From Mucilaginibacter paludis DSM 18603 (GTDB lineage: Bacteria; Bacteroidota; Bacteroidia; Sphingobacteriales; Sphingobacteriaceae): DNA of 64,000 bases. The stretch is taken from NCBI RefSeq assembly GCF_000166195.2, contig NZ_CM001403.1:4296432-4360431 (forward strand). Reading direction: 5' to 3'. The notes under the pieces were generated by a model. That model saw only the letters and a program-made list of their open reading frames with translations. It did not search any database and was not told the DNA's origin. Of the stretch, positions 6,601 to 12,645 are shown in pieces (the first letter of the stretch is position 1; each line of letters begins with the position of its first letter). The position numbers and the translations under genes are program-made.

Positions 6601-6724
6601 TCTGGCGGCTACGATAGTGAGCTATCGCTAAACCAAATGCTTTCCTTTTTTCCCCAGTTTTTTTAGGCTGATTCCAGATACCGATTTTTAAAGATTAACG
6701 ATTTACAAATTGTTATAAAACAGC

Positions 6725-6750
6725 AAAGCCCCTGATGGGCAGGGGCCTTT
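6725..6750 (-). terminator. Terminator of the tRNA-like unit
   Basis: GCCCCT and AGGGGC form a hairpin with a 7-nt loop. On the minus strand the stem is followed by TTTGCTGTTTT. It lies 35 bp beyond the second tRNA-like gene and ends that transcription unit. The CTTT on the other side could allow weak bidirectional use. Confidence 0.75.
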
Positions 6751-6785
6751 ACTAACCAATTATAAACCTAAATTATGAGAAGAGC

Positions 6786-6900
6786 TGTAGGAGAAGGAGT
6801 CGAACCTTCACGAAGTGGTTATTCTCATTGCTGAGAGTTTCCCAATATCTTCGCCACCGCGACAAGGAGGTGTGTCTGCCAAAAATTTCACCATCCTACA
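6786..6900 (-). ncRNA. tRNA-like RNA A with an extended structured variable arm
   Basis: On the minus strand this 115-nt element folds like a tRNA. The acceptor stem TGTAGGA/TCCTACA could gain an eighth C-G pair. T8 and G9 follow, then a D-arm GTG-AAATTTTTGGCAGA-CAC, an anticodon-type stem CCTCC/GGTGG with a central T-T mismatch, and loop TTGTCGC. The T-arm is GAAGG-TTCGACT-CCTTC. Read canonically, the anticodon is GTC (Asp), with G10, C38 and a following G at the discriminator position. The variable region is over 40 nt and has its own helices: CGAAG/CTTCG, TGG/CCA and TCTCA-GCAA-TGAGA. Ordinary class II variable arms are well under 25 nt. CCA is not encoded. Whether it is charged, or is a tRNA mimic, cannot be told from sequence. 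Confidence 0.6.
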
Positions 6901-6942
6901 GGATATAATTCAAACTATGGAATTAACCGGAATTTGAATTGC

Positions 6943-7053
6943 TGTTGGGGAAGGATTCGAACCTTCAAAGAGTGGTTAGCCCGCTTCGGGTTTTCCATGA
7001 TCTCCGCCACCGGGACAAGGAGGTGTGTCTGCCAAAAATTTCACCACCCAACA
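6943..7053 (-). ncRNA. tRNA-like RNA B with an extended structured variable arm
   Basis: This is a paralogue of the element at 6786-6900 and is transcribed first. The acceptor is TGTTGGG/CCCAACA. The D-arm matches copy A exactly, and the stem CCTCC/GGTGG again has a T-T mismatch. The loop is TTGTCCC and the T-arm GAAGG-TTCGAAT-CCTTC. The variable region is 40 nt, with GGAG/CTCT, TGG/CCA and CCCG-AAG-CGGG. Against copy A, two acceptor pairs changed on both sides, one outer variable-arm pair changed from A-T to G-C, and the terminal hairpin changed sequence while staying paired. These paired changes suggest selection for the RNA fold. The canonical anticodon would again be GTC. Confidence 0.6.
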
Positions 7054-7100
7054 TTATTATTTAAAAGAACAAGATTAGCTTTTAGGTTTTTTGCTTGATA

Positions 7101-7131
7101 CAAATTTAACACGCTTATCCATTCTTTGCAA
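7101..7131 (-). promoter_or_regulatory. Promoter of the tRNA-like unit
   Basis: On the minus strand TTG (7131-7129) is followed after exactly 20 bp by TAAATTTG (7108-7101). This matches the Bacteroidota primary sigma consensus TTG-N19/20-TAnnTTTG. Transcription would start near 7095, about 40 nt before tRNA-like RNA B. Confidence 0.7.
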
Positions 7132-7205
7132 ATATTTCAACAAATTATTTGCATTTTTATACAATTTTTAATTAAACTTGTATTTAGATAAATATTTATA
7201 AATTT

Positions 7206-11661: not shown

Positions 11662-12645
11662 TTATTTTCTAACGTACATTACTTCTTTTACCGCTTTAAC
11701 CACTTTTTCAGGATTTGGTAAGTATTCCTGGATCAAAGTAGGCGCGTAAGGCAATGGAACATCACCACCCATAATACGCAGGATAGGCGCATCTAAATAA
11801 TCAAAAGCATCCTTTTGTACTTTAAAGGCAACTTCGGTAGCTATTGAACCTAATGGCCAGCTTTCTTCAACAATAACCAAACGGTTTGTTTTTTTAACCG
11901 AAGCTATTACAGTATCATAATCAATTGGGCGTACAGTACGTAAATCAATTACTTCAGCTTTAATACCTTCTTTGGCCAGTTCCTGGGCGGCTGCTATAAC
12001 AACTTTCATTATTTTACCAAAGCCAACTAAAGTAACATCGCTACCTTCGCTAACAACCTTGGCTTTGCCAATTTCAATATAGTAAGTCTCTTCTGGTACT
12101 TCGCCTTTATCGCCATACATTAATTCCGATTCCATGAAGATAACGGGATCCGGATCAATAATTGCTGATTTTAATAAACCTTTGGCATCTGCCGGGTTTG
12201 ACGGAACAACAACCTTTAAACCGGGGCAGTTAGCATACCAGTTTTCAAAGCATTGGCTGTGTTGCGAGCTTAACATACCCGCGTTACCTGTTGGGCCACG
12301 GAATACGATAGGCACAGAAAATTGCCCACCACTCATCGACATGATTTTGGCCGCGCCGTTAATAACCTGGTCAATGGCTACCAATGAGAAGTTGAACGTC
12401 ATGAACTCGACAATTGGTTTTAAGCCGTTCATGGCAGAACCAATAGCGATACCGGCGAAGCCCAACTCAGATATTGGTGTGTCGATAACACGTTTTGCGC
12501 CAAATTCATCTAACATACCCTGGCTTACTTTATAAGCACCGTTATATTCGGCAACTTCTTCACCCATCAGATAAATTGTTTCGTCCTTGCGCATTTCTTC
12601 GTTCATTGCTTCGCGAAGTGCTTCTCTGAATTGTATTTCTCTCAT
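11662..12645 (-). CDS. pdhB: Pyruvate dehydrogenase E1 component, beta subunit
   Basis: The 327-aa protein matches the E1-beta family over its full length. It has the N-terminal REIQFREALREAMNEEM, the transketolase pyrimidine-binding part with YNGAYKVSQGMLDEFG, SQHSQCFENWYANCPGLKV, and the C-terminal transketolase domain with VIDLRTVRPID and VEESWPLGSIA. With E1-alpha it forms the thiamine-diphosphate enzyme that decarboxylates pyruvate for the dihydrolipoyl acetyltransferase. No E1-alpha or E2 gene is in the window, so the subunits are probably encoded elsewhere. Branched-chain E1-beta is a less likely alternative. Confidence 0.93.
   Translation of the reverse strand: MREIQFREALREAMNEEMRKDETIYLMGEEVAEYNGAYKVSQGMLDEFGAKRVIDTPISELGFAGIAIGSAMNGLKPIVEFMTFNFSLVAIDQVINGAAKIMSMSGGQFSVPIVFRGPTGNAGMLSSQHSQCFENWYANCPGLKVVVPSNPADAKGLLKSAIIDPDPVIFMESELMYGDKGEVPEETYYIEIGKAKVVSEGSDVTLVGFGKIMKVVIAAAQELAKEGIKAEVIDLRTVRPIDYDTVIASVKKTNRLVIVEESWPLGSIATEVAFKVQKDAFDYLDAPILRIMGGDVPLPYAPTLIQEYLPNPEKVVKAVKEVMYVRK

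Follow-up and report, generated by a model that had tools for sequence, protein, structure and literature searches.

Two tRNA-like RNA genes lying in tandem in the genome of Mucilaginibacter paludis are members of an undescribed RNA family that is widespread in Bacteroidota and in dozens of viral contigs. The members share a cloverleaf with a large structured variable (V) arm and a set of aspartate and GatCAB identity elements, are in most loci paired with a divergent gene for an AsnC-type regulator, and co-occur with GatCAB and with the absence of the E. coli-type AsnB. On this comparative basis we favour, with a probability of about 0.6, the reading that the RNA is a tRNA that takes no part in decoding and is reserved for tRNA-dependent asparagine synthesis, in which AspRS and then GatCAB would act on it under the control of an asparagine sensor.

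The RNA unit of Mucilaginibacter paludis

The window analysed is a stretch of 64,000 nucleotides of the M. paludis DSM 18603 genome (NZ_CM001403.1, positions 4,296,432 to 4,360,431). A complete unit is found on its minus strand, formed in order by a promoter, copy 1, copy 2, a 3' tail and a terminator (Table 1), with the two tRNA-like elements measuring 112 and 116 nt, respectively. Neither element is called by ARAGORN, which gave no call at any of the host loci tested, and Rfam 15 (including the tRNA family RF00005) contains no match to them at the gathering score or at E≤10; the matches obtained at relaxed E-values were chance matches only and were discarded. No paper describing this tRNA-like RNA family was found in the open-access literature searched. 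As for the wider context, a gene for PDH E1-beta is located beyond asnC in several Sphingobacteriaceae loci (L063, L065, L074, L079, L080) and at 11662-12645 in the window, and an amidohydrolase gene pair is located downstream of the RNA in the same several loci.

Table 1. Features of the RNA locus, in window coordinates.
Feature	Position	Strand	Basis
Bacteroidota-type promoter TTTG-N20-TAAATTTG	7101..7132	-	sequence
tRNA-like RNA copy 1; anticodon-position triplet GTC, loop TTGTCCC, G73, C74 encoded	6942..7053	-	model R1 E=5e-29; family alignments
tRNA-like RNA copy 2; anticodon-position triplet GTC, loop TTGTCGC, G73, C74 encoded	6785..6900	-	model R1 E=1.5e-29; family alignments
Conserved 3' tail CTCTTCTCATAATTTAGGTTTATAATTGGTTAG	6752..6784	-	found in relatives 3' of the final copy, and still present in those without a tRNA body
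Intrinsic terminator, GCCCCTGCCCATCAGGGGC hairpin (at about 6724-6750) and T run	about 6717..6750	-	sequence; hairpin and T run also in relatives
Divergent AsnC/Lrp-family regulator, 158 aa	7206..7682	+	Pfam PF01037/PF13412/PF13404; best solved structure E. coli AsnC 2cg4

Cloverleaf and variable arm

In each element an acceptor stem of 7 bp is combined with a Leu-like D arm, an arm of anticodon type, the V arm and a T arm of 5 bp that carries the TTCGA sequence. Alignments and pair counts show the layout of a standard tRNA, with an acceptor branch of 7/5, the usual D, anticodon and T arms, GG in the D loop and TTCGA in the T loop; the 8/4, 9/3 and 8/5 branches of allo-tRNA and tRNA-Sec-like molecules are not seen. 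In the window copies the V arm is ~40-45 nt long and contains three helices, being laid out as a 5-bp helix, a 4-nt bulge, a 3-bp helix, a GAAA/CUAA internal loop and an apical hairpin. Across the family it is structured, has a conserved internal loop and extends to ~100 nt; its apical part can be as small as a hairpin of 2 bp or as large as a domain that bears the motif GGGTTGACCAC. Second copies in Pedobacter-like genomes (L069:3169-3312, L075:3204-3345) possess a V arm of ~75 nt with the GGGTTGACCAC domain and lie beside a short-armed copy.

Since the single-sequence folding energy of the elements is not exceptional, the evidence for an RNA structure is comparative. The named structure is 94% paired across 67 distinct relatives, in which changes on both sides have been found at 15 pairs, against 4-6 in slid controls. 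The base helix of the V arm covaries (GGAG/CTCT, GGAG/CTCC, GAAG/CTTC, GTAG/CTAT, GGGG/CCCC), and an alternative stem between the anticodon-arm CTCC and the V-arm GGAG was rejected, given that CTCC never changes and the partner with which GGAG covaries is the 3' strand of the V arm. A T29.T41 mismatch is present in the anticodon stem of the Mucilaginibacter copies; in other families this stem has no mismatch and shows covariation (CCCTC/GAGGG, CCCCC/GGGGG, CCCGC/GCGGG, CCCAC/GTGGG), which confirms the anticodon-type arm, and the D stem covaries there too. The cloverleaf with its structured V arm is supported by strong compensatory change.

An earlier note, made from the sequence alone, had claimed two tandem minus-strand tRNA-like elements with structured variable arms of about 40 nt, paired changes between the copies, and a flanking promoter and hairpin terminator; all of these claims held, and that of an anticodon-type arm held with the correction that the Mucilaginibacter stem has a mismatch. 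Its inference of an unusual tRNA class is supported by the phylum-wide homologues with compensatory changes, found with covariance models in Sphingobacteriaceae and beyond, and by the lack in Rfam 15 of a standard family explaining both copies. A mimic or regulatory RNA, which it had also considered, is not needed as a first reading, and the 3' tail may have a regulatory role. The family is larger than that note described, and the AsnC pairing, the GatCAB/AsnB correlation and the non-decoding loop were absent from it.

Distribution in Bacteroidota and phages

A 33-nt block of the D and anticodon arms recurs in 33 of the 60 nearest genomes, mostly as tandem pairs, and is therefore not due to chance. 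By means of a covariance model, full-length members have been identified in many genera of Sphingobacteriaceae, with up to eight matches per genome, and with a wider model further members were detected in several families beyond this one and in a second class of Bacteroidota. Weak model matches elsewhere, measuring 82-87 nt, were left out because they are ordinary tRNA-Leu; as these are included in the raw 'positive' tallies of the model searches, such tallies were not used as prevalence. A degenerate pattern scan returned at least 120 rows, with the full element in 115 of 120. The RNA is found in the orders Sphingobacteriales, Cytophagales, Chitinophagales and Saprospirales, as well as on one Ignavibacteriales contig, and the named genera are Mucilaginibacter, Pedobacter, Chitinophaga, Hymenobacter, Spirosoma, Dyadobacter, Algoriphagus, Cyclobacterium and Neolewinella.

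Among viral contigs, a similar pattern scan judged by the same criteria detected the element in 94 of 120 rows, a few of them doubtful, often within arrays of ordinary tRNAs; a BLAST search of the RNA against annotated phages and plasmids gave nothing useful. In these phage arrays the RNA is often located near tRNA-Ser(tga) (L282, L286, L296, L321, L332). Perfect palindromes (such as GCGCGC, GCATGC, GTGCAC, GCTTGCAAGC) are observed in viral copies (L277-L396) after GGGTTGACCAC and in long D loops. They are present in 59/66 viral V-arm domains (about 20 expected) and in 9/11 extended viral D loops (1.6 expected), and no such palindromes occur in host copies. They suggest that the viral RNAs could form homodimers by kissing contacts.

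Identity positions and anticodon loop

Bacterial aspartate identity is carried by G73, G34, U35, C36 and C38 (PMC9976931), and GatCAB recognises the U1-A72 pair (PMC4206432). Given that the pattern scans forced positions 35, 36 and 38, only the model-found set (n=95) was used for these positions; this set is unselected on the identity positions, but the model was trained on pattern-found members. U1-A72, G2-C71, G73, U35, C36 and C38 are present in 95/95 model-found members and G34 in 93/95; U1-A72 is found in 144/145 genome elements and 67/70 viral elements. Both the AspRS-substrate set, with exceptions at position 34, and the bacterial GatCAB element are met. The earlier note had also listed AspRS features: those at positions 34, 35, 36, 38 and 73 held in this unforced set, and G10 did not, not being conserved in other families.

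Position 33 may be U, C, A or G, position 37 is U, C or G in nearly all members, and position 34 is sometimes A, C or U (Hymenobacter and a few other species). The criteria of a decoding tRNA-Asp (U33, purine 37) are not met by the family; the ordinary tRNA-Asp of M. paludis has G1-C72, U33 and A37, while U1-A72 is found in the tRNA-Asn of this genome. Every host copy inspected encodes C74, as do the ordinary tRNAs of M. paludis. In Hymenobacter (L160, L161, L174, L181, L197) the loop reads CTATCTC or CTCTCTC, and the Hymenobacter-like genomes G467 and G377 lack GlnRS and have AsnA, so that the RNA may be drifting or reassigned there.

The AsnC neighbour, the 3' tail and relics

The regulator in the window matches E. 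coli AsnC (2cg4) with 134 bits and Lrp with 50 bits. A homologue of this regulator (50-93% identity) lies upstream of the RNA in the opposite direction, mostly 120-245 bp off, in about two thirds of the loci sampled phylum-wide. In E. coli, asnC is divergent from asnA and its product controls this gene.

Where the RNA is missing from a relative, the promoter, tail and terminator are often still found upstream of the regulator gene, with a TAnnTTTG-like promoter element at the same place where the RNA body is missing. Two degraded copies have been found at asnC loci, namely a shrunken relic consisting of acceptor and T arm only (L400) and a 3'-truncated copy (L399). The 3' tail TTTAGGTTTATAATTGGTTAG before the terminator (L397-L407, as in the window) is kept when the tRNA body is lost, and other families have other conserved tails, TTTTGGGTTTATTGTTAATTGA and TTTTTAGTTTGTTGATGAAGTG. 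The tail is lineage-specific, being absent in Chitinophaga-type loci, and could conceivably act as a small-RNA seed or have another regulatory role. A match between CACCTCCTT and the 3' end of 16S rRNA was set aside, as it is confined to one family.

Co-occurrence with GatCAB and asparagine synthetases

The gatB gene was found in all 22 RNA-containing genomes tested and in 0/7 RNA-less genomes of the same family (the RNA-less members of genus g44 not being among those tested); outside the family, four RNA-less genomes of the class lack it and three RNA-less genomes have it, two of the latter without GlnRS. The association gives a Fisher value of 6e-7, uncorrected for phylogeny, and all co-occurrence counts for the RNA, gatB, asnB and asnA are likewise uncorrected for shared ancestry. 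AsnRS is encoded in 39/39 RNA-containing genomes and GlnRS in 35/39, hence GatCAB is not needed there for ordinary charging. Bacteroidetes are listed in a set with unexplained GatCAB, which may have AsnRS and GlnRS and lack AsnA and AsnB (PMC4206432).

The E. coli-type AsnB, whose identity was checked against 1ct9 (846 bits), is present in 0/39 RNA-containing genomes versus 17/26 RNA-less genomes (three families), and AsnA in 2/39 of the former. Nine RNA-containing genomes, including M. paludis, have neither AsnA nor AsnB above the curated cut-off, and RNA-less relatives mostly have one or the other. Within genus g44, the RNA-less members tested have AsnB and the RNA-containing member tested (G100) lacks the E. 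coli-type enzyme. Many RNA-containing genomes encode other AsnB-like proteins of 590-690 aa, whose function is unknown; one examined had a hydroxyamidotransferase match nearly as good as that to AsnB. Exceptions to the pattern are G395, with gatB and no RNA detected, and G463 and the Hymenobacter-like G467, with the RNA plus AsnA. Furthermore, f67 and G467 have the RNA and lack GlnRS, and GatCAB therefore has another duty there.

In the AspRS of M. paludis, as in that of E. coli, Leu and Lys occupy the aligned sites at which the non-discriminating P. aeruginosa enzyme (4wj3) carries His and Gly, so the non-discriminating residues are absent. Leu and Lys at these sites mark a discriminating enzyme. 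As such an AspRS would not charge tRNA-Asn, a tRNA with aspartate identity would then be the way to feed GatCAB.

A proposed model for tRNA-dependent asparagine synthesis

According to the proposed mechanism, the transcript would be processed as a tRNA and CCA-tailed, the ordinary discriminating AspRS would load it with aspartate through G34, U35, C36, C38 and G73, and GatCAB would read U1-A72 and convert the Asp-tRNA into Asn-tRNA by amidation. Aspartate codons would be closed to this Asn-tRNA(GUC) by its bulky V arm and by its altered anticodon loop, in which 33 is free and 37 differs from the usual A, and free asparagine would be released as a substrate for AsnRS. Asparagine is probably sensed by the divergent AsnC homologue, which would control the RNA gene as E. 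coli AsnC does asnA. Transcription, charging, amidation, exclusion from the ribosome and asparagine release are all inferred, in the absence of RNA, charging or amidation data.

This reading is supported by the identity positions, the loop at 33 and 37, the gatB link, the presence of AsnRS and GlnRS, the absence of the E. coli-type AsnB and the AsnC pairing, as well as by the loss lineages that keep promoter, tail and terminator, the Leu and Lys of AspRS and the encoded C74. Against it stand the normal preference of AspRS for G1-C72, the A, C or U at position 34 in some species, the exceptions G395, G463, G467 and f67, the other AsnB-like proteins, and the fact that no release enzyme has been identified.

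A bolder version holds that the tRNA serves solely as a cofactor in the production of a free amino acid, so that throughout the phylum an RNA under an asparagine sensor takes the place of asparagine synthetase, that the V-arm domain may scaffold AspRS and GatCAB, and that the RNA was captured by phages, where the palindromes suggest RNA dimers; taken as one joint claim, we would bet neither for nor against it. If the main reading is true, it would explain why GatCAB is kept in many Bacteroidota despite AsnRS and GlnRS, often without a dedicated asparagine synthetase, an open question in PMC4206432, and it would represent a tRNA evolved out of decoding into metabolism. Independently of this, a very large bacterial group and its phages gain an RNA family that escaped the standard tools applied here. 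Each step of the proposed pathway is directly testable with purified AspRS and GatCAB.

Alternative explanations

The strongest rival, possible though not likely, is that the charged non-decoding tRNA (Asp or Asn) serves as an amino acid donor in another pathway, for instance one that modifies lipids, the cell wall or peptides, GatCAB doing no more than determine which amino acid is carried. The same identity and non-decoding features and the GatCAB link fit this reading, and the release enzyme required by asparagine synthesis is not known; however, no partner enzyme is found as a conserved neighbour, the recurrent neighbour being AsnC, and replacement by AsnB points to asparagine itself.

An unusual elongator tRNA that decodes GAC/GAU or recodes special sites, and whose V arm serves for docking, is unlikely. 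It would account for the GTC triplet of most members and for their place among ordinary tRNAs in phage arrays, but position 33 is not a fixed U, a pyrimidine or G stands at 37, G34 can be replaced by A, C or U, an ordinary tRNA-Asp is present, and Asn on a GUC anticodon would misread Asp codons. A regulatory RNA under AsnC control, with its 3' tail acting as an sRNA and its tRNA-like body there only to stabilise or process the transcript, is also improbable: the tail is kept where the body is lost and the AsnC pairing resembles a regulator-sRNA pair, but the tail is restricted to certain lineages and the invariant part is the tRNA identity positions. Finally, the RNA might resemble an allo-tRNA and be serylated, with SerRS recognising its long V arm and G73. 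This has in its favour these two features, the existence of allo-tRNAs with GUC (PMC7609411) and the frequent proximity to tRNA-Ser in phages, but can be all but dismissed, because the acceptor branch is 7/5 and not 8/4 or 9/3, the pair U1-A72 and not G1-C72, and the conservation of U35, C36 and C38 is left unexplained by a SerRS that ignores the anticodon.

Comparison with known systems

The asparagine synthesis favoured here would resemble the known tRNA-dependent route of Deinococcus, Thermus, Bdellovibrio and Staphylococcus (non-discriminating AspRS, GatCAB and tRNA-Asn) in that GatCAB would amidate Asp on a U1-A72 tRNA, in cells that may be equipped with both AsnRS and GlnRS and be without AsnA/AsnB (PMC4206432). 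In the known route, however, a non-discriminating AspRS misacylates tRNA-Asn, which goes to the ribosome, whereas the family described here is a separate tRNA with the Asp identity set, a non-decoding loop and a large V arm, and would serve a discriminating AspRS. The locus is similar to E. coli asnC-asnA, in which an AsnC-type regulator is divergent from an asparagine-making gene, but in Bacteroidota the divergent gene encodes an RNA and not the enzyme AsnA.

Allo-tRNA, tRNA-Sec and other non-canonical cloverleafs share with the family a long V arm, G73 and a missed or odd standard annotation; the family differs from allo-tRNA and tRNA-Sec in its 7/5 branch, its V arm with a conserved internal loop and a length of up to ~100 nt, its Asp/GatCAB identity and its wide distribution in one phylum. 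The closest canonical model match is the tRNA-Leu(GAG) of the same bacteria, which has the most similar D-arm and anticodon-stem sequence, but it has A73 and G1-C72 where the family has G73 and U1-A72, and it differs in the anticodon and V arm too.
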